The translations under genes and the position numbers were made by a program. DNA of 40,747 nt, taken from IMG/VR virus record IMGVR_UViG_3300035034_000143, positions 1 through 40,747 of that record, one strand, 5' to 3'. Positions 1-40,747 of the stretch are shown here, one piece after another; the stretch's first letter is position 1; each line of letters starts with the position of its first letter. The stretch is from a virus. The notes under the pieces are model-generated. The model did no database searches. It was not told the origin of the DNA and saw only the letters and a program-made list of their open reading frames with translations.

Positions 1-680
1 AGCAAGGAAAAGAAAACTGGGCATACAGTTGTGATCCTGTGACTGGCAAAATAGCGCCGGGGGAAATTAACTGGGCTGGTATTACTCGTAAAAATACACA
101 AACTATTCAATTAACATTTGACAATGGCGAAACTTTAGTTTGTACTCCAGACCACAAGATACCAGTATTTGGAAAAGGTATGGTAGAAGCCAAGGACATC
201 GTCGAAACTGATAGTTTAATATCGTTTAATAAAAGAAACAAAAAGATATCGTCTAACTCTAATGACTATGAGCAAGTTTGGGATCATAGCAAGAAGGACT
301 GGCAGTGGACTCATCGAGTTGTAGGCGAGTTTTTTAGAAACTTGAGCAAACATCAGGAATTTACATACCTTGAACAAAATGCAGGAAAGTCTAAAGCAGT
401 AATACATCACCGAGATTATAATCGCTTTAATAACGATCCACGTAATCTTCAATACATGAATAAAGCTGATCACATACAGTACCAAGCAGAACAAACAGCA
501 ACCCAGCAAGTTGTATTACCTGAAGTTGGTAATTTAATAACTAATGATCAGAACCTCGCCAGAGTAACAAAGACAGAAAATGTAACCAATCGAGATACAG
601 GAACTATTACCATAGACGGCACTGAAAAATGGCACAACTATCACACGTATGCTATCGAGAGTGGTATCTTTGTTAAAAAT
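1..680 (+). other. Portal intein 1 (HNH-bearing; N-terminal about 26 residues outside window)
   Basis: Contiguous intein. The window starts about 26 residues inside it, judged against intein 3 (WAYSCDP aligned with WTYSTNP). Block B is visible as TPDHKIPVFGKG. A central region (about 240-480) carries an HNH-type homing nuclease signature beginning at the His-His pair encoded at 405-410 and running HHRDYNRFNNDPRNL. The C-terminal splicing blocks end in GIFVKN, followed by Ser+1 at 681. The penultimate residue is Lys rather than the usual His. It is the only portal intein here with an apparently complete nuclease motif. Confidence 0.88.
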
Positions 681-2483
681 TCAGTTAACGAAGATTATTT
701 CTTTCCCCAGACCTGCCTTTCATTAGAAACACCAATACCGTTATTAGACGGAAGGACGCTAACGTTAGATGAAATAATTTTAGAATATAAAAATGGTAAG
801 CGTAATTGGACTTATGGGTTGAGCAACATTACTCATGAAATGGAATCAGCTGAAATCAAGTGGGCTGGTATCACTCGTAAAAATGCTAAAGTTTTAAAGA
901 TAACACTGGACAACGGTGAAACTATCACCTCTACGCCTGATCATAGGTTCATTATGCGCGACGGTAGAGAAGTAGAAGCTCAGCATCTTTTAATCAATGA
1001 CAGCTTAATGCCGCTAGAATTACGCGATGGATATTCTGGACCAAAACAAAATCACAAAGTTGCGTCTATTGAATGGTTAACTGAAACCATAGACACTGGA
1101 GATATTACGGTTTTAAGTGACAGTAACAGCCATTGGTTTGGATTAGCAGCCGGAATATATGTTCACAACAGTGAAGGGCGCGGCTCTAAAGTTGAAACAC
1201 TGCCGGGTGGATGTTTTTCAATGGACACTAGGGTTAGTTTATTAGACGGCCGAGAATTGAGCATTTCCGACATTGAAGCTGAAATGAGCACAGGCAAGAC
1301 ATTGTGGACTTATTCAACTAATCCGGAAACTGGACAAGTTGTGCCTGGAATAATTTCCTGGGCAGGAGTAACTCAAAATTCTGCACAAGTTATGCGTCTT
1401 ACCTTAGACAACGGAGAACATATAATTTGCACTCCGGACCATCAATTTCCTGTATACGGAAAAGGTTTTGTAAGAGCAGAGCACTTGTCTGAAAATGAAA
1501 GCATGATTCCGCTGTATAAGAAAAAAGAATTTATTTCAAAAAATAAGAAGCTAGAATACGAACAATATTTTGACAATGCGGTAAAAGAATGGAAATTTAC
1601 TCATAGAATGGTTGCTGATTATCTTCCTGAGAATATTGTAAAGAATTTTGTTTATAAATCAAATAATGATAACAAATTTAATGTTAGACAAAAAGAAAGT
1701 GTACACAATCACAGAGTTGTAAAAATTGAATACCTTGACGATGCAATTCCTGTAGGCACACTTACTATTGACCAAGACGAAATACATCATAATTATCATA
1801 CATTTGCGCTAACTGCTGGAATATTTACAAAGAACTCGAATTTAGGTGAAATCGACGATTTGAGATACTTTACTAACAAAATGGTAAGAGCGTTGCGTAT
1901 ACCTAGTAGTTACTTGCCAACTGGTGCAGAGGATTCTGCATCAACAATGAATGATGGACGTGTGGGTACAGCTTATATTCAAGAGCTACGCTTTAACACC
2001 TATTGTGAACGGTTACAAACACTAGTAGTAGGAGAATTTGATCAAGAGTTCAAAATCTATCTCTTAGAAAAAGGTGTGAACATTGATACGTCGATGTTTG
2101 ATCTCAAGTTTCAACCACCACAAAACTTTGCAGCGTATCGACAAAGCGAACTTGATAACGCTCGTATTCCAACGTTTACTCAAATGAGTGCAGTGCCCTA
2201 CATATCCAACCGGTTTGCTATGAAAAGATTCCTGGGTATGACTGATGAAGAGATTATGGAGAACGAGCGGTTGTGGAGAGAAGAAAACGAAGATGATTTA
2301 GGCGGCGCCAGCGGTGATGCCAGTGCTGAAATGCGTGATGCTGGTATTAGCGGAGCCGGCATAGAATCTGACATTGACGGAATAGAGGATGAGATGCCAG
2401 ATGATACTGCACCTATTATAGGCAACGACGCTGGCGGCAGCGATGACCTCCCAACAGGAGGCGGAGAGCCGCCTCCGGCATAA
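1..2483 (+). CDS. 20: Portal protein gp20, C-terminal part, interrupted by three inteins (5' end outside window)
   Basis: Portal vertex protein: forms the dodecameric ring at the special capsid vertex through which DNA is packaged and to which the neck attaches. The reading frame is open to the left edge. Removing three inteins (1-680, 714-1169, 1212-1835) leaves SVNEDYFFPQT, then SEGRGSKVETLPGG, then SNLGEIDDLRYF and the rest. This matches the T4 gp20 segment around the LEDYW...EVDTLPGG...NLG...DLRYF motifs and its C-terminal portal domain. The C-terminus is a disordered acidic, Gly/Pro-rich tail ending GGGEPPPA. The next gene starts 7 bases after the stop. A GC-rich hairpin (2457-2476) lies inside the last codons. 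The three insertions fall within about 25 residues of host protein, so mature portal needs three splicing events. Identity is very likely; intein boundaries come from C1 and the terminal Asn/Ser+1 patterns. Confidence 0.93.
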   Translation, partial: QGKENWAYSCDPVTGKIAPGEINWAGITRKNTQTIQLTFDNGETLVCTPDHKIPVFGKGMVEAKDIVETDSLISFNKRNKKISSNSNDYEQVWDHSKKDWQWTHRVVGEFFRNLSKHQEFTYLEQNAGKSKAVIHHRDYNRFNNDPRNLQYMNKADHIQYQAEQTATQQVVLPEVGNLITNDQNLARVTKTENVTNRDTGTITIDGTEKWHNYHTYAIESGIFVKNSVNEDYFFPQTCLSLETPIPLLDGRTLTLDEIILEYKNGKRNWTYGLSNITHEMESAEIKWAGITRKNAKVLKITLDNGETITSTPDHRFIMRDGREVEAQHLLINDSLMPLELRDGYSGPKQNHKVASIEWLTETIDTGDITVLSDSNSHWFGLAAGIYVHNSEGRGSKVETLPGGCFSMDTRVSLLDGRELSISDIEAEMSTGKTLWTYSTNPETGQVVPGIISWAGVTQNSAQVMRLTLDNGEHIICTPDHQFPVYGKGFVRAEHLSENESMIPLYKKKEFISKNKKLEYEQYFDNAVKEWKFTHRMVADYLPENIVKNFVYKSNNDNKFNVRQKESVHNHRVVKIEYLDDAIPVGTLTIDQDEIHHNYHTFALTAGIFTKNSNLGEIDDLRYFTNKMVRALRIPSSYLPTGAEDSASTMNDGRVGTAYIQELRFNTYCERLQTLVVGEFDQEFKIYLLEKGVNIDTSMFDLKFQPPQNFAAYRQSELDNARIPTFTQMSAVPYISNRFAMKRFLGMTDEEIMENERLWREENEDDLGGASGDASAEMRDAGISGAGIESDIDGIEDEMPDDTAPIIGNDAGGSDDLPTGGGEPPPA
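714..1169 (+). other. Portal intein 2 (mini-intein, 152 residues)
   Basis: Starts at Cys1 (CLSLETPIPLLDGR) after ...FFPQT and ends GIYVHN before Ser+1. Block B is TPDHRF. The penultimate His and terminal Asn are the canonical residues for Asn cyclisation. At 152 residues there is no room for an endonuclease, so this is a splicing-only mini-intein. It is clearly related to inteins 1 and 3: the segment WAGITRKN is shared exactly with intein 1, and DNGE follows in all three. Confidence 0.88.
1212..1835 (+). other. Portal intein 3 (208 residues, degenerate nuclease region)
   Basis: Starts at Cys1 (CFSMDTRVSLLDGR) after ...TLPGG and ends GIFTKN before Ser+1 at 1836. Block B is TPDHQFPVYGKG. The middle matches intein 1 just before its HNH motif (EQYFDN..KEWKFTHRMV against EQVWDH..KDWQWTHRVV), but the HHRDYNRFNNDP segment is gone and splicing blocks resume at HNHRVVKIEYL. 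This looks like an intein that lost its nuclease by internal deletion. The penultimate residue is Lys. Confidence 0.87.
2457..2476 (+). terminator. GC-rich hairpin at the end of gp20
   Basis: GGAGGCGG (2457-2464), loop AGAG, then CCGCCTCC (2469-2476): a perfect 8-bp GC-rich stem inside the last codons of gp20. No U-tract follows. A late promoter motif starts 4 bases after the stem. It may attenuate or terminate read-through, or protect the 3' end of the upstream mRNA. Confidence 0.45.
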
Positions 2484-7139: not shown

Positions 7140-8927
7140 ATGATAGATAAGATACGTTCGATAATTGAAGGATACTCAACTAAGAGTTATGCTCGTTTAT
7201 TAAAAAAGTACCCGGACATACTAGAATGGTTAAGTGTACAAACAGCAGAGTATCCTACTAAGAGTGTGAATGAACAATTATATATTGTTTTAGTCTCTTT
7301 ACCCAAGAGTAAACCCTGTGGTAAACATCCAAGTTTTTCGTCATACAATAAAGGTTACCGAGAATTCTGTGGTCCAAAAAGCAGTTGTGAGTGTAGTCAA
7401 ACACATCAAAGTACTGTGCTGACTGACTATCATAATACTTCAAGTGCCCAAGTAAAATCTCAGACAGGGCAGCGTGCTAAAGCAACCATGCAGCGACGTT
7501 ATGGCGTAGACAATGCTATGCATGTGCCTGAAATAAAAGCCAAACAAGAAAAGACTAATCTAGAAAGATACGGAGCAACAAGTCCACTAGCCAATGCTGA
7601 TGTACAACAGCGTATTAAACAAATAAACCTAGACAAGTTAGGTGTAGAGTATCCGTTTCAAAGTCACGCCGTAATAGACAAAGCGCACAATACCAGTAGA
7701 ACTAGATATGGTAATGACTTTATGAAGGGTGCTAGACAGACCTACCTAGACCAGCATGATAATCAAAACCCGTTTGTAGTGAATCAAGCAAAGATAAAGC
7801 AACGTATTGAAGAAAGATATAATGTTCAACATCCTATGCAAAGCGCCGAAGTAGTAGCTAGAGCAAAAAATACTCTTTTAAAGAATCACAAGGTGGCTAA
7901 CCCTGCACAGCTACATATTCCGGCTGACTCATATAAGATCCTAGAAGACCGCGAACAGTTATTTAAGTTGTGTGACCGTCACAGCCTCAAGGAGTTAACA
8001 GAGATACTGGGCGTAAGTGAAACTATTATTTGGAATAGGCACGACCGATATGAATTTGACTTTTATTCTCGCAGTGTTAGAAGTCAATACGAAGAAGAAA
8101 TTGCATATTGGCTAAGTCAGCAGGGTGTTAGCTATATTAGAAACTATAAGCTATGTTCTAAAACAGTGGACTTCTTAATTAATGATACTATTGCAATTGA
8201 ATTTAACGGCCTATATACTCACAGCGAAAACAGCTTTTATGGCCAGCAATTAAAAATAGACAGCAAATATCATTACAATAAGTTCGTTAACTGTGCAGCG
8301 CAGAATATTCAGCTGTTTACTATATTCGAAGACGAGTGGAACACTTCTAAAGAGATTATCAAAAACAAGCTAATGATATCATTAGGTCTAGGTCAACGCG
8401 GAGCAGCAGGACGAAAGCTGTCAGTGTGCAGTGTGGATCACATCACTGCTCGAGCTTTTTTAGCCCATTATCATCTACAGGGCGCAGTAAATAGTTCAGT
8501 TTATCTTGGGGCATTTGAAAAAGATCAGCTGGTGGGAGTTATGTCATTTATACAAAGAAACACAGGTTCATGGGAACTAAACAGATTTGCCAGTGACCAG
8601 AAAATGCGAAATGGACTGTTCTCGAAGATGCTTGCTTACTTTGAAAGAAATTACAAACACAACGAGATATATAGCTTTAGTGACAACAGATGGAGCAAGG
8701 GCAACGTTTATCAAAAGAACGGTTTTACACTGGACAAACATTTAGCTCCTGACTACGCCGTTACCAACTACCATATACGAGAGCACAAGTTTAAATGGCG
8801 TAAGGCCAGGATTGCTGCTAGGTTTGGAGTTGATGTCGGAAACAAAACTGAGCTAGAATTGATACGCAGTCTCAAGTGGGACAGAATATGGGATTGTGGA
8901 AAAGTTCGCTGGATAAAGACAAAATAG
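7140..8927 (+). CDS. Freestanding homing endonuclease 1, Vsr/EDxHD-like, with tandem RYGV modules
   Basis: Predicted site-specific DNA endonuclease that spreads its own gene. Residues 1-100 form a helical and Cys-rich domain (C..H..FSSYNKGYREFC...CEC). Residues 117-257 hold about seven tandem modules of roughly 23 residues with the pattern RYGVxxPxQ...K..T.L. A possible helix-turn-helix follows (SLKELTEILGVSETIIW). The nuclease core has VDFLIND...IAIEFNGLYTH with D344, E354 and H361 and downstream IFEDEW, resembling Vsr-type nucleases. The C-terminal part (about 415-595) has a GNAT-like look (YLGAFEKDQLVGVMSF). The TAG stop lies inside the stem of terminator copy 2. It is inserted between gp23 and the next structural gene and has its own promoter. 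Paralogous to the next gene. Target unknown; gp23 or its vicinity is the natural guess. Confidence 0.8.
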   Translation: MIDKIRSIIEGYSTKSYARLLKKYPDILEWLSVQTAEYPTKSVNEQLYIVLVSLPKSKPCGKHPSFSSYNKGYREFCGPKSSCECSQTHQSTVLTDYHNTSSAQVKSQTGQRAKATMQRRYGVDNAMHVPEIKAKQEKTNLERYGATSPLANADVQQRIKQINLDKLGVEYPFQSHAVIDKAHNTSRTRYGNDFMKGARQTYLDQHDNQNPFVVNQAKIKQRIEERYNVQHPMQSAEVVARAKNTLLKNHKVANPAQLHIPADSYKILEDREQLFKLCDRHSLKELTEILGVSETIIWNRHDRYEFDFYSRSVRSQYEEEIAYWLSQQGVSYIRNYKLCSKTVDFLINDTIAIEFNGLYTHSENSFYGQQLKIDSKYHYNKFVNCAAQNIQLFTIFEDEWNTSKEIIKNKLMISLGLGQRGAAGRKLSVCSVDHITARAFLAHYHLQGAVNSSVYLGAFEKDQLVGVMSFIQRNTGSWELNRFASDQKMRNGLFSKMLAYFERNYKHNEIYSFSDNRWSKGNVYQKNGFTLDKHLAPDYAVTNYHIREHKFKWRKARIAARFGVDVGNKTELELIRSLKWDRIWDCGKVRWIKTK

Positions 8928-8946
8928 GCCCTTCGGGGCCTATTTT
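8921..8946 (+). terminator. Rho-independent terminator after homing endonuclease 1 (copy 2)
   Basis: Eleven-base-pair stem (8921-8931 with 8936-8946) and UUCG loop. It is the same hairpin as after gp23, identical over 28 bases. The TAG stop codon of the endonuclease (8925-8927) is part of the stem. Confidence 0.9.
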
Positions 8947-9004
8947 CACATCTAACATAAGCCACAACTTAATTGATTATGAGTTCAAATGTATAAGTAT
9001 CTAT

Positions 9005-10507
9005 ATGAAAAATACTATAATAGAAATTATAAACTCTACTAATCCAAAAAGCGTTAGTAAGAAGATAAAAAACAATGCTGTGCTAAGTGAATGGGTTTGT
9101 GAAAATTCATCTCAGTCTTCAAACTTTTCTCAACGTATATACGACAGTGTACATTGTATAACATCAACAACATGCGATAACGGTAACTTCAAAAAGTTTA
9201 AGTCAATCACTACTGGATACGGCTTTTGTGCGGTATCAAGCCAGTGTAAGTGTGCTAGACAACATGTGTCAGAATCAGTAGCATTATCAAAAAAATCTTA
9301 CTCTGCAAAAACTAAACAAGAAATTAATACCAAGCGAGCAACTACTAATTTAAAAAAATACGGGGTGTATAACGTAGGACAGACTGCTGATGCTCGACAA
9401 AAACATCAGGACTTTTATGCTGCTACTAAAAAACAACTAGTAAAGAAAAGTACATTGATCGAGCAAAGTTACTTTAAAATAAAGCAGCGTGTAAATAAAA
9501 CAGATGTTGAATTGTTAACACCAGTGCATGAGTATATGGGAGTTAGTAACCAAGCATATTATCAGTTCCAATGCAAATTATGTGACTTTTTATTCTCAAC
9601 TTACTTAGACAACGGTAATGTGCCAATTTGCAAGAAGTGCAATCCTACCATCCCCAGTTATGTCAGTCAAGCAGAAACAACACTTAAAGAGTACGTGCAA
9701 GATTTGCGACCAGATCTAGTAGTAGAACAATCTAATAAGACCATAATTAATCCGTTTGAGCTAGACATTGTTATTCCAGAACTTAAAATAGCAATTGAAT
9801 ATTGTGGTTTATACTGGCACAGTTCGTTATATAAGAAATCTATTAAGTATCACTATGATAAAATGATTAAAACTAATCAACAAGGGTATAGGTTAATTAC
9901 TATTTTTGAAGACGAATGGGTAAACAAGCAACACATAGTTAAGTCTCGCTTAGAGAATATCCTGGGTAAATCAGAAAAATTATATGCTAGAAAATTATCT
10001 GTTAAACTTGTTACTGGTTCCCAAGCTAGAGAATTTTTGAATAACACTCACATACAGGGATATTGCTCTGCTAGTATCAATATAGCACTGTGTGACGATA
10101 CAGGTATCGTTGCATTAATGAGTTTTGGAAAGCCGCGTTATAATAAAACATATGAATATGAGATCATTCGATATGCTAGTCTAGGAACAGTTGTAGGTGG
10201 CGCAAGCAAACTGTTTAGACATTTTATAAGAATGTATGCTCCGTCTAGTGTTATCAGTTATTGTGACATGAGGTGGGGCACAGGGGAACTGTATTCAGCC
10301 ATAGGAATGACATTTCTTAAGTCTACTCAGCAAGGCTACTGTTATACAAATTTCACAACGCGATTGCATCGGTCAAACTTTACTAAATCTAAATTGCTTG
10401 AAAATCCTGACGCAGTGGGAAATACCGAAGAAGAGCTAGCAGCTTCAATTAAGTGGTACAGGATAGGCGATTGTGGAAACAACTTGTACGTATGGCACTG
10501 CGAATAG
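9005..10507 (+). CDS. Freestanding homing endonuclease 2, Vsr/EDxHD-like
   Basis: A 500-residue paralogue of the preceding endonuclease. The N-terminal domain repeats the Cys-rich pattern (C.NGNFKKF...GYGFC...CKCA), followed by one RYGV-type module (TNLKKYGVYNVGQ). A zinc ribbon lies near residues 189-217 (CKLC...CKKC). The nuclease core FELDIVIPELKIAIEYCGLYWH has D254, E265 and H272, with IFEDEW further on. This resembles Vsr, where an Asp strand is followed by GCFWH. The C-terminal part again has a GNAT-like appearance. The ATG at 9005 is the first Met in frame after the upstream terminator; a longer frame from 8876 would overlap the upstream gene. Shine-Dalgarno is weak. The next late promoter begins just after the stop. 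Confidence 0.77.
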   Translation: MKNTIIEIINSTNPKSVSKKIKNNAVLSEWVCENSSQSSNFSQRIYDSVHCITSTTCDNGNFKKFKSITTGYGFCAVSSQCKCARQHVSESVALSKKSYSAKTKQEINTKRATTNLKKYGVYNVGQTADARQKHQDFYAATKKQLVKKSTLIEQSYFKIKQRVNKTDVELLTPVHEYMGVSNQAYYQFQCKLCDFLFSTYLDNGNVPICKKCNPTIPSYVSQAETTLKEYVQDLRPDLVVEQSNKTIINPFELDIVIPELKIAIEYCGLYWHSSLYKKSIKYHYDKMIKTNQQGYRLITIFEDEWVNKQHIVKSRLENILGKSEKLYARKLSVKLVTGSQAREFLNNTHIQGYCSASINIALCDDTGIVALMSFGKPRYNKTYEYEIIRYASLGTVVGGASKLFRHFIRMYAPSSVISYCDMRWGTGELYSAIGMTFLKSTQQGYCYTNFTTRLHRSNFTKSKLLENPDAVGNTEEELAASIKWYRIGDCGNNLYVWHCE

Positions 10508-24591: not shown

Positions 24592-27500
24592 ATGGCCCTT
24601 TCATCACCAGGTGTACAAGTTAATGTAATTGACGAAAGTTTTTACACACCGTCATCCGCTGGTACAGTACCAATGATCTTTGTAGCATCTGCAGAAAACA
24701 AAATCAGCAGCGGCGGATCAGGCGTTGCAGTTGGAACACTCAAGTCCAACGCAGGCAAACCATACTTAATTACTAGTCAGCGAGAACTGGGTGAGACATT
24801 TGGTGATCCGCTGTTCTATTCAGATAGTAACGGAAACATGATCAACGGCGGCGAGCTAAACGAATATGGTTTACAAACTGCTTATTCGCTATTAGGCGTT
24901 AGCAACCGAGTATACGTTGTGCGAGCAGATTTAAACTTAGCCAAGCTGCAAGCATCGGCTAATGCACCTGGCGGAGAGCCTGCTGATGGTGCTTATTGGT
25001 TTGACACTCAGGTTACAAACTTTGGTTTTCTAGAGTGGAATTCAGCAGCATTAACTACCTCAAATGGACAGAGCTTTTCTACTGTGCCTAGAACAGTGAT
25101 CGTTGAGGCATCTGATCTTGACGGCAATGTACCTAAAAGGTCGATAGGACAGATTGGTAACTACGCTGTTGTAGCAGAAACTAATATGAACCGAGTATAT
25201 TATAAGACACCCGGGGCAAGCAGTGCAGCTGGCAATCCAGGCGATTGGGTAGAGGTTGGTTCACAGAAATGGAAAGCTAGCTGGTCTAGTGTACGCAGTT
25301 CTGTTGCGCCTGGTGCTTTAACTACTAGCGGAACTATTATAATTAACAACTCTACTGTTACACTCGATGGCACAGATGTAGCTGCCATGGTTACAGCTAT
25401 TAATAGCCCAGATATCACAGGAATTACAGCAGCAGCACCTAATGGACTACTAGAAATTTATTCAACAGGTGTTGACGTGATCATTGCAGCTGGCGGCGGC
25501 ACTTTGTTAGGTGAACTAAACCTTGTTGCTGGTACCTACATTGCTCCAGTTCTAGCGATTCAACCACATACAAATGTTCCGGCATTTAAAAGTTCAGATC
25601 CTAGTCCAGCGCCAACCGGCTCTATTTGGTTAAAGACCACTGAGCCAAACGGCGGCGCAAAGTTTTCAGTAAAGCAGTATAACGGTGACACTCAACTTTG
25701 GGAATTGCTAAGCGCTCCTTTATTTTCCACACCTAATGCAGCATTGTTTAATCTAGACAAAGCTGGCGGTGGAACAAATATAATGACTGGGGACGTTTAT
25801 GTTAAAGTAAACGCTGACGAAGAAGCAGACCCCCACGCAAATTACAAGATATTCCGTCGCGTATCGCAAGGTCCGTCACAAATAACAAGTGCGACAGTCG
25901 TAGATCAATTGACTGGAGCAATTAGTTTTTCCATACAGGAATCAACAGTAGGAAGACTAGCACTCAGCACTGCTCAGACAATTACTTTTGAGGCAGCCGG
26001 AACACTAGCAGACGCAGAGACAATGGCAGCAGCTATCAACGCAGCTGGATTTGTTAACGTTGTTGCAATGGTAAACGCTACCAACAAAGTTGTAATACAG
26101 CACAAGCTAGGTGGTGAAATCCGCATAACTGACTCAGCCGAAACACTGGCTCTTATTGGATTTGATACACTGGTAGTATCTAACTGGCGAGAGCTGGAGT
26201 ACACAGCGTCACCTGATGAGCCGTTGAGTCTTACTGCTGACGGTGAAATTTGGTATAACTCAGTTGTTGATGAAGTTGATATTATGATACACGACGGTAA
26301 TGGTTGGGTAGGATATGCTAACGAACTTACTAATACTGATGCTGCCGGGCCAATTGTTAGTGCTTCTGAACCTACTACGCAACGAAACAGCAGTGCACTA
26401 GTAGAAGGTGATCTTTGGATTGACACTGCTGACATTGATAATTATCCGGGAGTTTATCGTTATAGCGCACAACGATCAGAATGGATATTGCTTGATAAAA
26501 CTGACCAAACATCCGAAGAAGGAATTCTGTTTGCAGATGCTCGTTGGGGCAATGCTGGCTCTGACAGTGCTCCGGCAGACATAGACGAGTTGTTAACTTC
26601 TGATTATTTGGATCCAGATGCACCTGATCCAGCGCTATACCCAAAAGGTATGCTGCTATGGAACATGCGCAGAAGTGGATTTAACGTTAAGCGTTATGTA
26701 CGCAACTACATAGATACTGCTGGTGACAATATTCGGTTTAGTGACGAAGCAATGCAAAACTATTATCCAAACCGTTGGGTTACTGACTCAGGTAATAACA
26801 TCGACGGCTCAGGTTCGTTTGGTAGAATTGCGCAGCGTAAGTCAGTTGTACAAGCATTTCAAGCCATGGTTAATGGAAACCAGCAGATACGTGACGAAGA
26901 ATCAAGACAGTTTAACTTGATGGCTACTCCGGGCTATCCGGAACTAATTGGGGAAATGATTACTCTAAACTACGACCGAAGAATTACTGCGTTTGTAGTA
27001 GGTGACACTCCGGCAAGATTAGCTCCAGATGCTACTAGTCTTAACGAGTGGGGATCAAACGTTAACTTGGCAGTCGAAGACAACATCAACGGCGCAGTTA
27101 GTCGAGATGAGTACATGGGCATGTACTACTTGTGGGGATTCACTAGTGACAACTTTGGTAACAACATTGTTGTACCACCAAGTCACATGGCGCTTCGTAC
27201 TATAGTGCTAAACGACCAAGTGGCGTTTCCGTGGTTTGCTCCAGCAGGAACTCGTAGAGGCGGAGTAACCAACGCAAGTGCATCAGGCTACATCAGTAGT
27301 GAAGGTGAGTTTGTAAGTGTTGCTTTGAATACAGGTCAGCGTGATACGCTGTATGCTAACAGTATTAACCCAATTACGTTTATTAGCGGTGCAGGACTTG
27401 TTGTATTTGGACAGAATACTCGAGCAAGAAATGCAAGTGCATTAGATAGAATAAATGTTGCTCGGTTGGTTGTTTATCTACGTGGTCAATTTGAGTTACT

Positions 27501-31710: not shown

Positions 31711-32328
31711 ATGGAAATGAAAAAATTATTAGAGTCGCTAAACGAATGTGGCATGGAACAAATGCCAGGCCAAAACAGCGGTTCGCCGGTCACAATGAAT
31801 ATATCATTAAATGCATCAGGCAAAGAACATGTAGCTGATCTAGTAGCTATGATGAAAAATGCAGGGTTGTCTAGTGCAGAAGAATTTAGCCCAGAAATGA
31901 TGCCAATGCGCCAGGACATGGAAAATTTTAGAGGAATGGTAGATGGTGATAAAGAGACTTCATCAGAAATGCCCGCTATTGCACCAGAAATGGACGGCCC
32001 GGGCATGGCAGACGATGACGATGACGATGCTTCTATGAAAAAAGGGGAAATGGGCCTAGAAGGATACGATAACGAGCCAGACGAAGAGTATCAGGACACT
32101 AGCTATATGACCAAAGATTTAGCTGGTGGCCTAAATCGCGAGAAGAAAGCATATAAATCTGCACAGGACGGTGACAACGCAATGGCTGTTGAGACTATCA
32201 AAGCACAGCTTTTAAGAGCACTTAATGAAAAAAAAGCTAAGCCTGATTTCCTTGATGTGGATAAAGATGGTGATAAGAAAGAGCCGATGAAGAAAGCTGT
32301 AAAAGATAAGAAATCGAAAAAGAAGTAA
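31711..32328 (+). CDS. Low-complexity charged phage protein
   Basis: A 205-residue protein starting MEMKKLLESLNE, again a leader with an LNE site. It has a region resembling a small beta-alpha unit (VTMNISLNASGKEHVADLVAMMKNAG), an acidic Met-rich centre with a six-Asp run, a conserved DLAGGLNREKKAYKSAQDGDNAMAV stretch, and a Lys-rich tail containing FLDVDKDGDKKEPMKKA, which looks like a degenerate EF-hand loop. The start at 31711 has AGGAG upstream; an earlier ATG at 31663 would overlap the previous gene. Similar proteins occur in marine T4-like phages; probably head-associated. Function unknown. Confidence 0.65.
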   Translation: MEMKKLLESLNECGMEQMPGQNSGSPVTMNISLNASGKEHVADLVAMMKNAGLSSAEEFSPEMMPMRQDMENFRGMVDGDKETSSEMPAIAPEMDGPGMADDDDDDASMKKGEMGLEGYDNEPDEEYQDTSYMTKDLAGGLNREKKAYKSAQDGDNAMAVETIKAQLLRALNEKKAKPDFLDVDKDGDKKEPMKKAVKDKKSKKK

Positions 32329-32337
32329 GGGAGTAAA

Positions 32338-33117
32338 ATGACACAACTACTAAAAAACTTATCTAATACTAATACAGAGGATCAAATAGAGCATTTAATT
32401 AAGTGCTCTGATCCTGAATCAGGATTCCTATATTTTGCGAATAATTTTGTAAATGTCTTGCACCCAATAATCGGTAATATCTCTATAGAGTTATTTGATG
32501 CTCAAGCTGAACTTATGGAGAGTTTTCATAATAATCAGTTTAGTATTAATATGCTTGCTCGGCAGTCAGGCAAGACTCTGTGCGCTGCAATATACTTATT
32601 GTGGGATGCAATGTTCAAGCCCAGCCAAGAAATATTAATTACCTCGAATAAATTAGCAATGTCTTGTGATGTTTTAGAAAAGATGCGATATATCTACCAT
32701 CATTGTCCGCATTACTTAACACCAAAAATAATAAAAGATAATAAGAAAGAGCTTGCTTTTGCAAACGGCTCTAATATTTATGGTTCAGTCCTAGCAGAAT
32801 ACACAGGGAAGGGTCGCAGCCTAGACATTTTGTATTGTGATGAATATGCATTTTGTAAGCCAGAAGTTGCAAAAAAGTTTATTGAAGAAATTCTTCCGTG
32901 TATGCTCAACACAGGACGTACAATTATTACGTCGACTCCTAATCACAAGACTGATCCTTTTATGAATATATGGAACGACACTAGTAAAAACCACTTTGTG
33001 CCGTTTACAGCATCCTGGGATAAGTTCTTTGATAGATCTGAAGCATGGAAAACTGCTACTATTAGTAGAATGGGCGCAGAGTATTTTAGAAAAGAATTCG
33101 AAATTGAAATAGCATAA
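32338..33117 (+). CDS. Truncated intein-free paralogue of large terminase gp17 (ATPase domain only)
   Basis: A 259-residue copy of the gp17 N-terminal ATPase. It aligns from TEDQIEHLIKCSDPESGFLYF (gp17: TEEQIQHLVKCMDPDNGYMYF) to the end. Walker A is ARQSGKT without an intein, Walker B is LYCDEYAF, and the coupling motif is TSTPN, so ATP hydrolysis looks possible. It stops with FRKEFEIEIA, just where gp17 reads FRREYG and meets its split intein. The nuclease domain is absent. It directly precedes gp17 with tandem stop codons (33115-33120) and then the gp17 ATG. It may be a degenerate duplication, a decoy or assembly partner, or a splicing-independent motor subunit; the sequence cannot choose. 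Codon usage differs from gp17, so it is not a recent copy. Confidence 0.82.
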   Translation: MTQLLKNLSNTNTEDQIEHLIKCSDPESGFLYFANNFVNVLHPIIGNISIELFDAQAELMESFHNNQFSINMLARQSGKTLCAAIYLLWDAMFKPSQEILITSNKLAMSCDVLEKMRYIYHHCPHYLTPKIIKDNKKELAFANGSNIYGSVLAEYTGKGRSLDILYCDEYAFCKPEVAKKFIEEILPCMLNTGRTIITSTPNHKTDPFMNIWNDTSKNHFVPFTASWDKFFDRSEAWKTATISRMGAEYFRKEFEIEIA

Positions 33118-33120
33118 TAA

Positions 33121-35025
33121 ATGTCTAAATCGCTTGACGGAGTCCTAACCAAAAAGGCTCATACAAAAGATACATATACCGAAGAGCAGATTCAACACCT
33201 TGTAAAGTGTATGGATCCTGACAATGGGTACATGTACTTTGCTGAGCACTTTGCATATATACAGCACCCAGTAAAAGGCAAGCTGCTGTTTGCTCCCTAC
33301 GAATATCAAGTAAGATTGATGCATAGTTACCACAACTATCGTTTCAATATTAACATGATGCCACGCCAAACGGGAAAGGCACTAGCTCTTGATACCCCTA
33401 TTCCTACTGTCTCTGGATGGACTACTATGGGAGATCTTAGCGTAGGAGATCACATACTCGACGCTAACGGTAACGCTACTAAGGTCACATTTGCCACAGA
33501 AGTAATGAACAATCATAACTGTTATGCTGTTGAATTTGATAACGGCGACGTCATTACTGCCGATGAGGACCATTTGTGGAGTGTTAACACTGGCTTTTGG
33601 AGAGCTGGCCGCAAGACACTTACTACTAAAGAAATAAAAGACTACGTTGAATCTCACAATACATGTGTGTACATAGATGCTGCCAAAGAGATTACCACTG
33701 ACGAAATAGAACTGCCTGTAGACCCGTATGTATTAGGCTTTTGGCTAGGAGACGGCGAAAGTGCAGGAGCTAGATATACCCAATGCATTGATGATAACAA
33801 AGAAATTATTCCAGAAATAGTAAGCCGAGGTTTTGAAATATCTAAGTCTTATACAAACGGCACTAGCGTGGTTAGCGAAAATAGAACAATTTACGGATTG
33901 CGCGGAAAACTAAACAAGAATAATTTATTAAAAAATAAGCATATTCCCGAAATTTATATGAGAGCATCTGTTAATCAACGAGTTGAGTTAATTCAAGGAC
34001 TAATGGATTCTGACGGATCAGTAGATAAACGCAGCGGAAGATGTGAGTTTTATCAAAAGAACAAGAATTTAATTGTCCAGGTGCAGGAACTACTGTCGTC
34101 TTTAGGAATTAAAAATAGGTGCAGCTATAAAGTCATAGAGGATCAAAAGTATTACACTATTGGATTTGCAACCACTGCACACACTGTGTTTAAACTTAGT
34201 AGAAAAGCAAAATTTCAACAAAAGTGTAAAGGCCATCAAAAAAATACTCGACACTATATAAAGAGAATAACCGAAACACAGTCAGTTCCTGTGAGATGCA
34301 TTCAAGTAGACAATGACGATCATTTATTCTTATGTGGTAAGTCGATGATTCCCACGCACAATACCACCTGCGCCGCCATCTACTTAACATGGTACGCTAT
34401 GTTTAAGCCTGATCAAACTATTCTTATAGCTGCTCACAAGTACACTGGTGCCCAGGAAATTATGGCACGGGTGAGATATGTATACGAGATGTGTCCGGAT
34501 TACGTTAGAGCAGGCGTTACTTCATATAATAAAGGCAGTATTGAATTCGAAAATGGTAGTAGAATCGTATCTCAAACTACTACAGGAAATACCGGCCGAG
34601 GCATGAGTATTTCGTTACTTTACGCCGACGAATTCTCATTTGTTGCTCCTAACATTGCTGAAGAATTTTGGACGTCAATCTCTCCTACTCTAGCAACGGG
34701 TGGTAGATCAATTATCACAAGCACGCCAAACTCAGATGAGGATACTTTTGCTACAATTTGGAAGCAAGCAGAACAAAAGTTTGATGACCACGGTAACGAA
34801 CGGGAAGTAGGTATCAACGGATTTCATAGTTTTACTGCTAAATGGGACGAACATCCAGATAGAGACGAAGCGTGGCGACTTGCTGAAACAGGTCGCATCG
34901 GGGTTGAAAAATTCAGAAGGGAGTACGGTTGTGTGAGCGCATCTACAATCATTACTCTCCAAGACACACACGGTAATATATTTGACTCACAAATAGGCGA
35001 CTTGTTCAACACTATAGATAAATAA
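33121..35025 (+). CDS. 17: Large terminase gp17, N-terminal half: ATPase with internal intein, ending in a split N-intein
   Basis: ATPase motor of DNA packaging. Exteins are residues 1-86 (33121-33378) and 189 residues (34363-34929). Walker A is RQTGK|TTCAA, interrupted by a 328-residue intein (33379-34362). Walker B is LLYADEFSF and the coupling motif is TSTPN. After REYG the frame continues into a 31-residue split-intein N fragment and stops. The nuclease domain is encoded separately at 36395-37150 behind the matching C-intein. Joined, the mature protein would be 526 residues, compared with 610 in T4. Both cis and trans splicing are needed before this protein is complete. The first in-frame ATG follows directly on the paralogue's stops. 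Homology is very clear. Confidence 0.92.
   Translation: MSKSLDGVLTKKAHTKDTYTEEQIQHLVKCMDPDNGYMYFAEHFAYIQHPVKGKLLFAPYEYQVRLMHSYHNYRFNINMMPRQTGKALALDTPIPTVSGWTTMGDLSVGDHILDANGNATKVTFATEVMNNHNCYAVEFDNGDVITADEDHLWSVNTGFWRAGRKTLTTKEIKDYVESHNTCVYIDAAKEITTDEIELPVDPYVLGFWLGDGESAGARYTQCIDDNKEIIPEIVSRGFEISKSYTNGTSVVSENRTIYGLRGKLNKNNLLKNKHIPEIYMRASVNQRVELIQGLMDSDGSVDKRSGRCEFYQKNKNLIVQVQELLSSLGIKNRCSYKVIEDQKYYTIGFATTAHTVFKLSRKAKFQQKCKGHQKNTRHYIKRITETQSVPVRCIQVDNDDHLFLCGKSMIPTHNTTCAAIYLTWYAMFKPDQTILIAAHKYTGAQEIMARVRYVYEMCPDYVRAGVTSYNKGSIEFENGSRIVSQTTTGNTGRGMSISLLYADEFSFVAPNIAEEFWTSISPTLATGGRSIITSTPNSDEDTFATIWKQAEQKFDDHGNEREVGINGFHSFTAKWDEHPDRDEAWRLAETGRIGVEKFRREYGCVSASTIITLQDTHGNIFDSQIGDLFNTIDK
33379..34362 (+). 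other. gp17 internal intein, class-3 type, with LAGLIDADG endonuclease
   Basis: A 328-residue intein starting at Ala1 (ALALDTPIPT) and ending PTHN before Thr+1. It lacks a nucleophile at position 1 but has the class-3 triad: Trp67 (DEDHLW), Cys307 (VRCIQV) and Thr326 (IPTHN). Two LAGLIDADG helices are visible: VLGFWLGDG (residues 118-126) and LIQGLMDSDG (204-213). It is inserted after the Lys of Walker A, so the motor is inactive until it is removed. Confidence 0.87.
34930..35022 (+). other. Split intein of gp17, N fragment (31 residues)
   Basis: Starts at Cys1 (CVSASTIITLQD) after REYG and ends FNTIDK at a stop codon. It carries only block A. This is the atypical split position, between blocks A and B, as known for the AceL-TerL intein. 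Its partner is at 36053-36394. Confidence 0.88.
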
Positions 35026-35055
35026 TTGCACAACAACAGTTTAACGGAGAATACT

Positions 35056-36069
35056 GTGAGCACTGCAATTTATATAGAATCAAAAATAGACAATGTCAAA
35101 TACTGCAAATCAAATGGGCAGTTTGGTAGGCATTTAAGAACTAACCAGATGACCTATCAAGATTACTACGAAAAATATATTACCAAGACTAGCCCTGAGT
35201 GTGCGTGCGGAGCTGGTTTAGCATTTTATCCGAGCTCAGAAACTTATGCAAAAAGCTGTGGCACTCCTGCCTGTCGAGGCAAGACCATATCTCAAGCAAA
35301 ACAGCAGTGGACTGAGCAAGAACGACAAACTGATTCGCTACACAAGAAAGCAGCAGCCGCAATTCGAACAGCTGACCAAAAACAAAAACAGCTTAACAAA
35401 TCACAGGCTACATTTAAAAAGAGATACGGAGTTGCGTGGGGTTCCGAATTAGACAGTCAAAAGGAAAAGTCAAGACAAACTAAACTATCGAGATACGGCG
35501 ACGAAAAGTACAACAATAGTAAAATGATTAGTATAACTAACCTAACCAAGTCAGTTGAAGAAAAAAATAAAATTAATGCGCTTAGAAGAGCAACTAATCT
35601 AGAAAGATACGGAGTCGAGCAGGTGTTGATGACCAAATCAACTGCCAGCAAGACCAATAAAGGCAACTGCACAATAAAAGACTATAAGATGCCAAGCGGT
35701 AAGATTGTGGGTGTACGCGGCCATGAGCCGCTTGCTTTAGATATATTATTTAACCAGCTGAAATATAGTGAAGATGACGTGATTATGCACGACGACTATT
35801 CAAACTATGCCATAGAGGTATTTGAGTACATAGCTGAAAATAGGCATCACCTAAAATATTACCCGGACATCTATATTCCTAAAGAAAATAAAATTATTGA
35901 AGTAAAGAGCCAATGGTGGTGGGACGGTCATGGCAAGGAAAAGTATAAGAATAGATTAGTTAATAACCTTAAAAAACGCCAAGCTGTTATAGACAAGGGT
36001 TACAACTACGAAGTTTGGATATTTGAGAATAAATATTCGTATAGGATATTAAATGAGCAAGATTTTTAA
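35056..36069 (+). CDS. Freestanding PD-(D/E)XK homing endonuclease between the gp17 halves
   Basis: A 337-residue predicted homing endonuclease nested in the fractured gp17 locus. The N-terminal domain has a zinc-like Cys pattern (CACGAG...CGTPACRG), then RYGV modules (FKKRYGVAW, LSRYGDEKY, LERYGVEQV), as in the two endonucleases near gp23. The catalytic core reads PDIYIPKENKIIEVKSQWWW with D271, E282 and K284. The start is GTG at 35056, with ACGGAG six bases upstream; an ATAAATA motif overlaps the N-half stop (35018-35024). Its end overlaps the start of the gp17 C-half by 17 bases. Split inteins flanking a freestanding endonuclease are the 'fractured gene' arrangement described from marine metagenomes. 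It presumably cuts the uninterrupted gp17 gene at the REYG-CEFL site. Confidence 0.85.
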   Translation: MSTAIYIESKIDNVKYCKSNGQFGRHLRTNQMTYQDYYEKYITKTSPECACGAGLAFYPSSETYAKSCGTPACRGKTISQAKQQWTEQERQTDSLHKKAAAAIRTADQKQKQLNKSQATFKKRYGVAWGSELDSQKEKSRQTKLSRYGDEKYNNSKMISITNLTKSVEEKNKINALRRATNLERYGVEQVLMTKSTASKTNKGNCTIKDYKMPSGKIVGVRGHEPLALDILFNQLKYSEDDVIMHDDYSNYAIEVFEYIAENRHHLKYYPDIYIPKENKIIEVKSQWWWDGHGKEKYKNRLVNNLKKRQAVIDKGYNYEVWIFENKYSYRILNEQDF

Positions 36070-36394
36070 AGAGAATACTAATGGATATAAGGTGCTAACA
36101 CCAGCGGGGTTTCAAGACTTTGCTGGTGTTAGCATGATGGGAATAAAACCGTTGCTTCGGCTAGAGTTCGAGCGCGGCGCATATGTCGAATGTACATACG
36201 ATCATAAATTTTACATAGACCTAGAAACTTGTAAGCCTGCCCAAGACATTGCAGTAGGAACCACTGTGGTTACTTCTGAGGGTGATATAAAATTACTTAA
36301 CAAAATAGAATTGGGTTATTCAGAACCTGTTTATGATCTTATACAAGTTGAAGGCGGTCACCGATATTACACAAACAAAATACTCAGCTCAAAT
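36053..36394 (+). other. Split intein of gp17, C fragment (114 residues)
   Basis: Starts MSKIFKENTNGYKVLTPAGF. It contains block B (TYDHKF) and the C-terminal blocks (VYDLIQVEGGHRYYTNKILSSN), ending in Asn before Cys+1. The penultimate residue is Ser instead of His. The opening resembles the C part of AceL-TerL-type inteins. Confidence 0.88.
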
Positions 36395-37150
36395 TGCGAA
36401 TTTTTGGTATTTGATGAGACTCTTATTAACAGCTTAAAACTAGCAGTTATGGAAGGCAAAGCTCCTATACTTAACATGGGCCAAACACGCTGGTATAAAA
36501 AGCCAACTTCACAATACACCTACGCAGTGGCGCTTGATCCTAGCATGGGCACAGGTGGCGACAATGCTGCTATTCAAGTGTTTGAACTGCCTAGCTACGA
36601 ACAAGTAGCAGAATGGAATCATAACGAAACTTCAATTCCTGGCCAGATAAGAATTATGTCTGATATTTGTAAGTATTTGGTAGAGCACACGAACAATCCA
36701 ACAGGTATATACTGGAGCGTAGAAAACAACGGTATTGGTGAGGCCGCATTAATTGTTATTAGTGACTTTGGCGAGGAAAACATACCTGGACTATTTGTAA
36801 GCGAGCCAATTAGAAAAGGCCACGTGCGCAAATTCCGCAAGGGATTTAACACAACACACAGTACTAAAGTAAGTGCATGCAGTCGCCTCAAGAGCATGAT
36901 AGAAAACGACAAGCTAATAATAAACAGTAAGCCTATGATATCCGAACTTAAACAGTATATTGCAACAGGTTCAAGTTATCAAGCAAAGTCAGGACGCGGT
37001 GACGATTTAATCAGTGCAACACTACTAGCACTAAGAATGATCACCGTGCTTAAAGACTGGGATCCTAGGATATATAACTCTTTTAGCCAAGCAGGGCATG
37101 TTGAAGATTACGAAGCACCTATGCCCATATTCATAAGCTCTAGCTATTGA
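36053..37150 (+). CDS. 17: Large terminase gp17, C-terminal half: split C-intein plus nuclease domain
   Basis: Begins with the 114-residue C part of the split intein (36053-36394) and continues with the gp17 nuclease domain from Cys+1 (CEFLVFDETLI). The RNase H-fold catalytic acids are present: D162 in VALDPSMGTGGD, E224 in WSVENNGIGE and D317/D318 in GRGDDLISA (numbering of this polypeptide), corresponding to T4 D401, E458 and D542. It cuts DNA at the end of headful packaging. The ATG lies inside the endonuclease gene, with AGGA six bases upstream, so translation is coupled. Trans splicing with the upstream half restores REYG-CEFL without gap or loss. Confidence 0.92.
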   Translation: MSKIFKENTNGYKVLTPAGFQDFAGVSMMGIKPLLRLEFERGAYVECTYDHKFYIDLETCKPAQDIAVGTTVVTSEGDIKLLNKIELGYSEPVYDLIQVEGGHRYYTNKILSSNCEFLVFDETLINSLKLAVMEGKAPILNMGQTRWYKKPTSQYTYAVALDPSMGTGGDNAAIQVFELPSYEQVAEWNHNETSIPGQIRIMSDICKYLVEHTNNPTGIYWSVENNGIGEAALIVISDFGEENIPGLFVSEPIRKGHVRKFRKGFNTTHSTKVSACSRLKSMIENDKLIINSKPMISELKQYIATGSSYQAKSGRGDDLISATLLALRMITVLKDWDPRIYNSFSQAGHVEDYEAPMPIFISSSY

Positions 37151-37156
37151 TAAATA
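37150..37156 (+). promoter_or_regulatory. T4-type late promoter ATAAATA (leaderless position)
   Basis: ATAAATA at the gp17 stop, then four bases and the ATG at 37161. T4 geometry puts +1 at 37162, so the mRNA would be leaderless or nearly so. No Shine-Dalgarno is seen. Confidence 0.5.
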
Positions 37157-37160
37157 CAAT

Positions 37161-38609
37161 ATGAACGAATTTAATAGGATAGGTGAAGACCTTTTTAACA
37201 AAATTAGAGGAAGATTTCCTAATGTTACCATAGGTGACCAAGAAGGAAATGTTACTAACGAGCCGGAAGCCGCTCGGTTCTTCGACTTTGAGTTTAAAGA
37301 AGGCGAAGTTAAGCTAGGGAAAGTTAGTGTTAGCATCGACGAGGATCGAGGGTTATCCGTTATCTTTTCTAAGGACTTTATGCAAGGCCAAGACAGTATA
37401 ACACAAAAACACTGGTACAGCTTTCTTAAAGAATTACGTGTATTCAGTAAAAAGCGTATGATGGGCTTTAGTATACGTGACATAAGTAAGTCTAATTTAG
37501 ATAAAAGAGATTACAAATTTTTAGCTACTAATCGGCCCGGGGACGATCAAATGACAGAATCAAAATTATACGGCACTCATAAAATGAGTTATCAAAACGT
37601 AGACAATGCCAGGCTTGTGATCAAGCATACAGAAAGTATAGATCAAGAAAAGTCAAGTGCTCGTTCGACAAAAGTAGGATCGATCTATATTGAAAATGAC
37701 CAAGGCGAACGATTTAGATATCCGTTTAATCATCTAAGTGGAGCTCGAGCAATGGCTCGTCATGTGTCAGAAGGTGGTAAACCGTTCGACGAATTCGGCA
37801 GTCATATCACCGGCTTATCTGAAGAGATAGCAAAATTGCGCAAGTTTAAGACTCACATGGGACGCAATTCTGTTATGGCAGAAAGTTTAGCAGGCTATAT
37901 GGACATCGTTAAAGAACGACTAACTACTGTTAAAAAGACACTAGAACAATTGCAAAAGACCAATTACTATAAAGAAGCATTTGAAACATTTGTAGTCCCA
38001 GTTATGGAAGACGTACCGGATCATGTACAAGATAACTGGATTGACGAACTGACTATTAAACAGTTTAACGAAGAACTTAAAGACGTATTCCCTTACATAT
38101 ATAATCTTGTATCAGAAAAGACCAAGACTAAACAAATGGGACCGGACGACTTTGTGAGCGAATCAGACGATCCGTGCTGGAAAAACTACAAGCAAGTAGG
38201 TATGAAAGACAAAGGCGGAAAGAAAGTTCCAAACTGCGTACCAGAAGAGTCTCAGATCGAATCAATCTTTAACGAACTAGCAGGGCAGTGGGCCGACGAA
38301 GGTTATACTGCTGAAGACAACGGTGATGAAGACCAAGCTGACGAAACAAACGCAGCAGAAGCACAAACTCCTATTAGTGAATTTGTACTCAGTTATTACG
38401 ATAGAGAGACAGGTACATTCCCCAAAGGAGAAACGGCCGTATTGACTATGGTTGAAAAAGAGTACGGAGACCAATACATTAATCCTGCCAAACAGTTTAT
38501 TGAGCGTGTAGGACAGGTATACGAACAATTTCGTGGTACATCTGATACAATGGTGCGTGACGAAGAACAATACGAATTCGAGCGCATGAGAAACTTAGCA
38601 GGCGTATAA
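37161..38609 (+). CDS. Conserved phage protein of unknown function
   Basis: A 482-residue protein with no T4 name that I recognise. Residues 1-130 form an alpha/beta domain (KLGKVSVSIDEDRGLSVIFSKD). Residues about 130-230 are beta-rich with a YGTHKMSYQNVDNARLVIKH segment. Residues about 225-310 are long helices with a coiled coil (MDIVKERLTTVKKTLEQLQKT). Near residue 340 lies DPCWKNYKQVGMKDKGGKKVPNCVP, a short Cys/Trp motif seen in a range of marine phage proteins. The C-terminal part is acidic and helical. No catalytic residues are evident. It sits between gp17 and gp32 behind a late promoter motif, so a structural or packaged role is possible. Confidence 0.7.
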   Translation: MNEFNRIGEDLFNKIRGRFPNVTIGDQEGNVTNEPEAARFFDFEFKEGEVKLGKVSVSIDEDRGLSVIFSKDFMQGQDSITQKHWYSFLKELRVFSKKRMMGFSIRDISKSNLDKRDYKFLATNRPGDDQMTESKLYGTHKMSYQNVDNARLVIKHTESIDQEKSSARSTKVGSIYIENDQGERFRYPFNHLSGARAMARHVSEGGKPFDEFGSHITGLSEEIAKLRKFKTHMGRNSVMAESLAGYMDIVKERLTTVKKTLEQLQKTNYYKEAFETFVVPVMEDVPDHVQDNWIDELTIKQFNEELKDVFPYIYNLVSEKTKTKQMGPDDFVSESDDPCWKNYKQVGMKDKGGKKVPNCVPEESQIESIFNELAGQWADEGYTAEDNGDEDQADETNAAEAQTPISEFVLSYYDRETGTFPKGETAVLTMVEKEYGDQYINPAKQFIERVGQVYEQFRGTSDTMVRDEEQYEFERMRNLAGV

Positions 38610-39824: not shown

Positions 39825-40067
39825 ATGGCTAAATCTTTCGACCCAACAAAATTTAGAAAAGACATCACAAAAGCAATAACCGGTATGAGTACTGGATTTA
39901 ACGATCCTACTGACTGGGTCTCTACTGGCAGCTATGCCCTGAACTATCTAATCAGTGGAGACTTTCACCGAGGAGTACCACTAGGCAAAGTAACAGTGTT
40001 TGCTGGCGAAAGCGGCTGCTTGCCAAAAGAAGCAGTAGTACAGGTTCGATTAACAAAAAAAGGCTAG
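39825..40067 (+). CDS. uvsX: UvsX recombinase, N-terminal part ending in an ultra-short split N-intein
   Basis: RecA-family strand-exchange protein of T4-like phages. The first 64 residues match the UvsX N-terminus and lead into the nucleotide-binding site, FAGESG. The frame then enters a 16-residue intein N fragment (40017-40064) and stops. The Walker A motif is split between G and S: GESG here and SGKS in the downstream gene. No functional recombinase can form without trans splicing. The ATG has an AGGAG site upstream. Unlike gp17, no endonuclease lies between the halves; only 58 bases separate the stop from the next ATG. Confidence 0.9.
   Translation: MAKSFDPTKFRKDITKAITGMSTGFNDPTDWVSTGSYALNYLISGDFHRGVPLGKVTVFAGESGCLPKEAVVQVRLTKKG
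40017..40064 (+). other. Split intein of UvsX, N fragment (16 residues)
   Basis: CLPKEAVVQVRLTKKG: Cys1 and a truncated block A, ending at a TAG stop. This is about as short as any known natural N-intein; the VidaL group, also found in UvsX, has the same length. Confidence 0.85.
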
Positions 40068-40125: not shown

Positions 40126-40494
40126 ATGATTGAAGAAAAGCAAGTAACAGTACAAGAGCTTAGAGAGCTATATCTCAGCGGCGAATATACTATTGAGATT
40201 GACACACCGGACGGATATCAGCCTATTGGAAAATGGTTTGACAAAGGTGTATTGTCTATGGTTAGAGTTGCCACAGCCACTTACGAAACAGTGTGTGCAT
40301 TTAATCATATGATTCAACTGGCTGACAATACATGGGTACAAGCCTGTGAGTTAGATGTAGGAGTAGATATACAAACTGCGGCAGGCATCCAGCCTGTTAT
40401 GTTAGTCGAAGATACAAGTGATGCAGAGTGTTACGATTTTGAAGTCATGCATCCGAATCATAGATATTACGGTGACGGAATCGTAAGTCATAAC
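40126..40494 (+). other. Split intein of UvsX, C fragment (123 residues)
   Basis: Starts MIEEKQVTVQELRELYL. It has a block-B-like segment, CAFNHMIQLADNTW, and C-terminal blocks CYDFEVMHPNHRYYGDGIVSHN before Ser+1. The penultimate His and terminal Asn are canonical. It carries everything except block A. Confidence 0.88.
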
Positions 40495-40747
40495 TCGGGT
40501 AAAAGTTATTTTTGCGCAGGTAATATTGTCAAAGATGCACAGGCACAAGGTATCTTTGTTGTACTTGTTGACAGTGAAAACGCACTTGACGAAAAGTGGC
40601 TACAGGCTCTTGATGTAGATACTAGTCCGACCAAGCTGCTCAAGCTAAACATGAGTATGATCGACGACGTTGCAAAGACTATCTCAACATTTATGATCGA
40701 CTACAAAGCATTGCCAGACGGAGATAGGCCCAAGGTGCTGTTTGTAA
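40126..40747 (+). CDS. uvsX: UvsX recombinase, C-terminal part with split C-intein (3' end outside window)
   Basis: The frame opens at ATG 40126 and runs off the right edge. The first 123 residues (40126-40494) are the intein C fragment. From Ser+1 the sequence is SGKSYFCAGNIVKDAQAQGI, then VVLVDSENALDEKWLQAL, which is the rest of the UvsX Walker A and the Walker B strand. Joined to the upstream half this gives GESGSGKS. AAAGGA lies 9 bases before the ATG. About 84 codons of extein are visible; the DNA-binding loops and C-terminus lie beyond the window. Confidence 0.9.
   Translation, partial: MIEEKQVTVQELRELYLSGEYTIEIDTPDGYQPIGKWFDKGVLSMVRVATATYETVCAFNHMIQLADNTWVQACELDVGVDIQTAAGIQPVMLVEDTSDAECYDFEVMHPNHRYYGDGIVSHNSGKSYFCAGNIVKDAQAQGIFVVLVDSENALDEKWLQALDVDTSPTKLLKLNMSMIDDVAKTISTFMIDYKALPDGDRPKVLFV

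Follow-up and report, generated by a model that had tools for sequence, protein, structure and literature searches.

Fractured genes are composed of two open reading frames (ORFs) made by split intein halves, as in AceL NrdHF where a GIY-YIG gene lies between both halves (PMC7891396). In the large terminase subunit (TerL), the split inteins AceL-TerL, GOS-TerL and Cat-TerL combine an N-terminal half (Int-N) of respectively 25, 37 and 30 amino acids (aa) with a C-terminal half (Int-C) of 104, 115 and 104 aa and are followed by a cysteine (Cys+1) (PMC11766414), the AceL and GOS inteins being split after the first helix, the so-called S2 position (PMC13014065). Here we describe a viral DNA stretch of 40,747 nucleotides (IMG/VR record IMGVR_UViG_3300035034_000143, positions 1 to 40,747; hereafter the window), in which a gp17-type terL gene is interrupted at EKFRREYG/CEFLVFDE (slashes mark junctions) by a 1,465-bp insert (34930-36394). 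We estimate at roughly 0.88 the probability that this insert is a mobile split-intein cassette in terL, that TerL is trans-spliced and that the cassette homes by means of an endonuclease of the DUF7487 family. A fractured TerL with an AceL-type split intein is as such an already known kind (fractured genes; AceL-TerL, GOS-TerL); the value of the present case is its allelic series together with its twice-fractured and unlinked relatives. The parts of the locus are the following:

33121..33378, plus strand: TerL extein 1, 86 aa, up to the Walker A motif MMPRQTGK
33379..34362, plus strand: cis-splicing intein with a LAGLIDADG domain, class-3-like, located in Walker A
34363..34929, plus strand: TerL extein 2, 189 aa, remaining ATPase domain, last residues EKFRREYG
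34930..35025, plus strand: Int-N, 31 aa (CVSASTIITLQDTHGNIFDSQIGDLFNTIDK), and a TAA stop codon; amino acid-coding part 34930-35022
35056..36069, plus strand: endonuclease gene of the DUF7487 family, free-standing, with a PD-(D/E)XK-like motif, a GTG as start codon and a GGAG Shine-Dalgarno sequence
36053..36394, plus strand: Int-C, 114 aa, with its own ATG and AGGA Shine-Dalgarno sequence, C-terminal SSN
36395..37150, plus strand: TerL extein 3, 251 aa, starting with CEFLVFDE, RNase H-like nuclease domain (Terminase_6C)
32338..33117, plus strand: ATPase-only TerL paralog, 259 aa, immediately 5' of the fractured terL

The host gene thus consists of two ORFs that each carry one intein half in frame, with the gene of a predicted nuclease standing free between them. 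The N-half ORF (33121-35025) contains the ATPase domain (Terminase_6N) and ends with ...EKFRREYG/CVSASTIITLQDTHGNIFDSQIGDLFNTIDK directly before the stop codon, while the C-half ORF (36053-37150) starts with Int-C, shares 17 bp with the endonuclease ORF and continues as ...SSN/CEFLVFDE from 36395 onwards. The fracture position coincides with the boundary of the ATPase and nuclease domains of TerL. Relatives possess unbroken alleles, the closest one being found in L009, a contig that is syntenic with the window from 27.5 to 40 kb (DNA identity 82-90%) and lacks three of its elements, namely the ATPase-only paralog, the Walker A cis intein and the entire cassette. The three extein pieces, colinear with the 526-aa TerL of L009, together count 526 aa and align to it without a gap at 94% identity. 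The sequence-only reading of this DNA, which had called gp17 a fractured gene with a 31-aa Int-N and a 114-aa Int-C in an insert at 34930-36394 and had predicted a joined product of 526 residues, was right to the base.

The intein itself is supported to be an atypical split intein of the AceL-TerL type, as had been proposed from the letters. The best PDB match of Int-C is CatC (6dsl_B, E 5e-10), an engineered consensus intein of the AceL/TerL type, with gp41-1 and VidaL ranking behind it. With 31 and 114 aa, an S2 split and Cys+1, the window pair agrees with the published values for this type (Int-N of about 25-37 aa). It further carries the residues of a class 1 intein, i.e. Cys1, block-B TxxH, a C-terminal Asn and a nucleophilic +1 residue, and ten lineages, identical to as little as ~35-40%, all retain C1, TxxH, VYD, the terminal Asn and Cys+1.

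The ORF between the halves encodes 337 aa, reads intact and matches Pfam DUF7487 (E 5e-30). The earlier claim of a complete PD-(D/E)XK endonuclease stands as far as a free-standing, intact gene is concerned, whereas the PD-(D/E)XK label rests on a motif (YYPDIYI...IIEVKS), of which PDI...EVK is retained in all five endonuclease sequences aligned. A sequence search returned weak matches in Vibrio phages, and a single-sequence query against IMG/VR matched the same phage only. Two more large endonuclease-like genes are situated 3' of the capsid gene (7140-8927 and 8876-10507), the former also being a DUF7487 member with an additional Mom-like region.

The split arrangement is not confined to the window. 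One contig, L001 (57.6 kb), is base-identical to it across a 10.7-kb overlap and perhaps derives from the same sample, so that it is not counted as independent; the arrangement is however also present in the independent lineages L003, L004/5, L006/7, L046, L104/105, L110, L156, L165 and L171. Related contigs were compared at the REYG/CEFL site and empty alleles were counted in IMG/VR, yielding 68 loci with a contiguous REY(G/D/E)/CEFL. Besides the window and L009, two further occupied/empty pairs show the insertion precisely: between L003 (occupied) and L067 (empty) the flanks are 96% (upstream) and 90% (downstream) identical and the difference at the site is exactly the cassette, and the same difference separates L149 from L146, with both flanks 88% identical. 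Next to empty sites, a contiguous mini-intein devoid of an endonuclease occupies the same codon position in L106-L108. Among the split alleles, the DUF7487 gene is intact in the window/L001, L003 and L098-L100 and bears an early nonsense codon in L004 and L005. In L006/L007, which are identical there, it has gained 14 bp (two additional CAAGAGT units) in the E-x-K motif of the endonuclease; L095 has the same truncated endonuclease ORF, and L008 does not differ from L006 in the portion of the endonuclease that it contains. The endonuclease is gone altogether in L104 and L105, where 76 bp remain, and in L171, where the two ORFs overlap; in L046 and L110 (GIY-YIG) and in L165 (HNH) another gene takes the middle position. 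Wherever the endonuclease is nonsense-mutated, frameshifted or lost, a stage found in relatives and not in the window, the intein halves are still open. This allelic series supports a homing element that would decay to a permanently fractured gene. We infer the order of the states, since the TerL tree cannot separate gain from loss.

Comparison of the flanking terminases points to mobility of the cassette. In a tree of the C-terminal part of TerL (TerL-C), the sister of the window is the empty L009 (support 97), intein-bearing alleles are scattered and the strongly supported branches require at least three state changes. Between the window and L006, 35% of the four-fold sites differ in the intein compared to 61% in the exteins (Fisher p 0.004). 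The simplest reading of these data is that the cassette moved between phages with already diverged terminases. Homing into an unbroken gp17, as the sequence-only reading had put forward, is supported by the 68 empty alleles, the cassette-exact pairs, the scatter in the tree and the synonymous divergence between the window and L006, which is lower in the cassette than in its flanks, cleavage itself being deduced. A dependence of packaging on how much of each of the two translation products is made, likewise suggested there, is backed by the anatomy at most. Directly 3' of the cassette (36395-36500) the window and the empty L009 share 96-98% DNA identity compared to 84-90% farther on; a co-conversion tract was considered for this stretch and rejected, because homing does not predict such likeness for an empty allele. 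Pairwise pN/pS values amount to 0.16-0.31 for Int-C, 0.14-0.24 for TerL-C, 0.22-0.31 for the endonuclease and 0.20-0.56 for the short Int-N of 31 codons. Int-C is under purifying selection also where the endonuclease is dead, and open, constrained intein halves fit a selection for splicing that would persist after loss of the homing ability.

In six related lineages (L004/L005, L006/L007, L104/L105, L156, L165 and L171) TerL is broken a second time, by a further split intein at Walker B with junctions SLLY/CLDGDT... and ...SHQ/CDEFAF, and is thus distributed over three ORFs, the middle one having an Int-C at its start and an Int-N at its end. In most of them an intact or shortened endonuclease-like ORF lies between the Walker B intein halves; L119 and L189/L190 resemble them upon partial inspection. 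No natural gene fractured twice was described in the literature searched, which did not cover subscription papers including Dassa 2009. Such terminases would amount to ligations of three pieces in nature, and could supply pairs of split inteins that must avoid cross-reaction.

Related inteins also reach into isolated phages, records with a related Int-C numbering 82 in all. At Walker B, such an intein splits gp17 of Krischvirus (JK32, kaaroe), Tequatrovirus HY03, Yersinia phiR1-RT and TG1, Shewanella Thanatos-2, Salmonella SG1 and others. At the loci L083, L084, L199 and L201, gp17 of coliphages and of other T4-like phages is broken at Walker B by a related intein with a TnsA-like nuclease, which is fused to Int-N in L083 and separate in L199; the products are annotated merely as hypothetical protein, terminase or endonuclease. 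Since one of the isolated coliphages with a split terminase, kaaroe (L084), has E. coli K-12 MG1655 as its host, trans-splicing during infection is directly testable. Campylobacter phage CPX encodes the C-half at 25271-26599 on the plus strand and, ~22 kb away near 2.7 kb on the minus strand, the N-half, which carries a 35-aa Int-N of its own (FIDE/CVAGDTKIT...) (L200 2498-3826, Int-C; L204 1411-2127, Int-N). With both halves on opposite strands, a whole TerL, if made there, must be joined post-translationally; the literature searched apparently holds no description of these unlinked halves. Vibrio phage Kuja, an isolated member of the Ackermannviridae, has a 748-aa TerL ORF (L198 3183-5429) with an Int-N-like stretch 48% identical to the window Int-N, which probably belongs to a contiguous intein.

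Taken together, we consider it likely, with somewhat less confidence than for the cassette itself, that the alleles at this one codon form a complete natural homing-cycle series (empty, contiguous mini-intein, split with an active endonuclease, and endonuclease exchanged, decayed or lost), that the twice-fractured TerL is made as three polypeptides and joined in the right order by two related but distinct trans-splicing inteins and that the unlinked Campylobacter halves represent an end point at which both genes are fully separated. Fractured genes pose the question of how an essential gene becomes permanently dependent on trans-splicing; with all stages present at one codon, the steps of invasion, decay of the endonuclease and lock-in become open to reconstruction and testing.

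In the mechanism we propose, the cassette is a mobile unit at the ATPase/nuclease boundary of terL, composed of both intein halves and, between them, a DUF7487 endonuclease that is translated on its own. The endonuclease would probably cut terL alleles with uninterrupted REYG/CEFL DNA, upon which repair from a cassette-bearing copy would insert all three parts exactly between two codons. The half-proteins would be made separately and the AceL-TerL-type intein halves would associate, after which trans-splicing, as suggested by homology and by the conserved Cys1, block-B TxxH, C-terminal Asn and Cys+1, would join ATPase to nuclease and remove the scar. The class-3-like cis intein in Walker A would have to splice as well. 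After fixation of the split intein, the endonuclease would be free to mutate, vanish or be replaced, while the intein halves would stay because the host gene now needs both of them.

Several observations weigh against this proposal. Trans-splicing and DNA cleavage are both deduced from sequence. The penultimate residue of Int-C is Ser (SSN/C) in the window and most same-site relatives instead of the usual His, so that splicing may be slow or unusual; it is Lys in L046/L110, and His is present in L111, a more distant T4-like locus. The AlphaFold model of the endonuclease is poor (pLDDT 51, below use for a fold search) and a PDB profile search for the endonuclease gave zero matches. In the four-fold-site test, the other five of six pairs were not significant. 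A second complete TerL was not seen, each record having one Terminase_6C match, including the 151-kb record behind L007; the records are however partial, and an intact second terL elsewhere cannot be fully excluded.

The missing penultimate His also fits a gene in pieces that does without splicing, its products forming a non-covalent complex in which the intein parts are docking tags or relics. A precedent is the ribonucleotide reductase of a T4-like phage, which Friedrich et al. 2007, a reference cited in PMC3322345, reportedly found to be split by a homing endonuclease; moreover, the fracture at a domain boundary implies that each half could fold alone, and an ATPase-only TerL paralog adjoins the fractured terL. 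Docking alone would not need catalytic residues, so that the conservation of C1, TxxH, VYD, the terminal Asn and Cys+1 down to ~35-40% identity speaks against it, as does the purifying selection on Int-C in the presence of a dead endonuclease, and we regard this explanation as unlikely.

Removal of the interruption at the RNA level, as a group I or II intron with the endonuclease inside it, has a documented counterpart in phage ICP1, the terL of which undergoes RNA splicing (PMC10448857). For the window such an intron is highly improbable, given that an Rfam search across 32000-37300 at E up to 1 returned zero group I/II intron or other matches, that the intein sequence of both halves is in frame and stops precisely at the junctions to the exteins and that the CPX halves lie on opposite strands. 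The metagenomic origin of the contig leaves an assembly error or a decaying pseudogene to be considered, in which a frameshift or chimera at 35025 or 36053, named beforehand as fatal to the split, would mimic it. Recurrence in many separate contigs and divergent, independent lineages with the catalytic positions kept rules out chance or assembly error, and together with low pN/pS in all parts and Shine-Dalgarno sites ahead of both downstream ORFs it reduces this explanation to a negligible one. The mobile, trans-splicing cassette accordingly remains the preferred reading.

Other inteins and paralogs occur in the same phage. The Walker A cis intein of TerL counts 328 aa and has a LAGLIDADG domain and junctions GK/ALALDTP...PTHN/T. 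Class 3 inteins lack an N-terminal nucleophile and possess a W-C-T triplet (N3:12, C2:4, C1:5) (PMC7891396); read from the sequence, the window intein has Ala1 and such a triplet (DEDHLW, VPVRC, PTHN). Combined with the split intein, the window TerL hence requires one cis and one trans splice. The ATPase-only paralog (Walker A ARQSGKT, Walker B ILYCDE, TSTPN) is ~41% identical to the window TerL, has its C-terminus about four residues beyond the gp17 fracture position and is found in IMG/VR only in this phage (L001/L087). The uvsX gene is fractured too (39825-40067 and 40126-40747), by a split intein with a 16-aa Int-N CLPKEAVVQVRLTKKG that is ~98% identical to VidaL (PDB 6vgv, E 9e-91); judged by this likeness, VidaL stems from the window phage or from one very close to it. 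A uvsW-like helicase (L089 12406-14304, same phage past the window) contains a contiguous mini-intein at DE/CFAGDT...VAN/CHQ, and the gp20-like portal protein (window 3-2483) apparently has three inteins with extein spacers of only ~11 and ~14 residues (FVKN/SVNEDYFFPQT/CLSLE...; YVHN/SEGRGSKVETLPGG/CFSMD...; FTKN/S). A T4-type late promoter TATAAATA was considered for the cassette and rejected; two copies are present in the window, which is below chance expectation, and neither is close to the cassette.

Compared to known systems, the window shares with AceL-TerL, GOS-TerL and Cat (6dsl) the terminase large subunit as host, a short Int-N, a long Int-C and Cys+1. It differs from them by an Int-C that is clearly diverged from CatC, by a penultimate Ser in place of His and by a full gene context that is known together with the endonuclease and the empty alleles. 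A free-standing endonuclease between split halves is likewise found in AceL NrdHF and in the fractured genes of Dassa et al. 2009, gp41, NrdJ and IMPDH among them, whereas in the window this is a DUF7487 protein and its relatives add GIY-YIG or HNH replacement, endonuclease loss and double fracture. VidaL, which corresponds over 138 aa to the uvsX intein of the same contig, contrasts with the TerL intein by its split after 16 aa and the absence of an endonuclease between the halves. The Walker B split inteins of isolated phages, Campylobacter Fletchervirus included, belong to the same wider family, also break TerL and also have a short Int-N, the window C-half ORF matching the Krischvirus Int-C region. 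They differ in their site (YIDE/CAFI) and in a TnsA-like nuclease, which Krischvirus encodes in fusion with Int-N and HY03 as an ORF of its own, while in CPX the halves have become unlinked.

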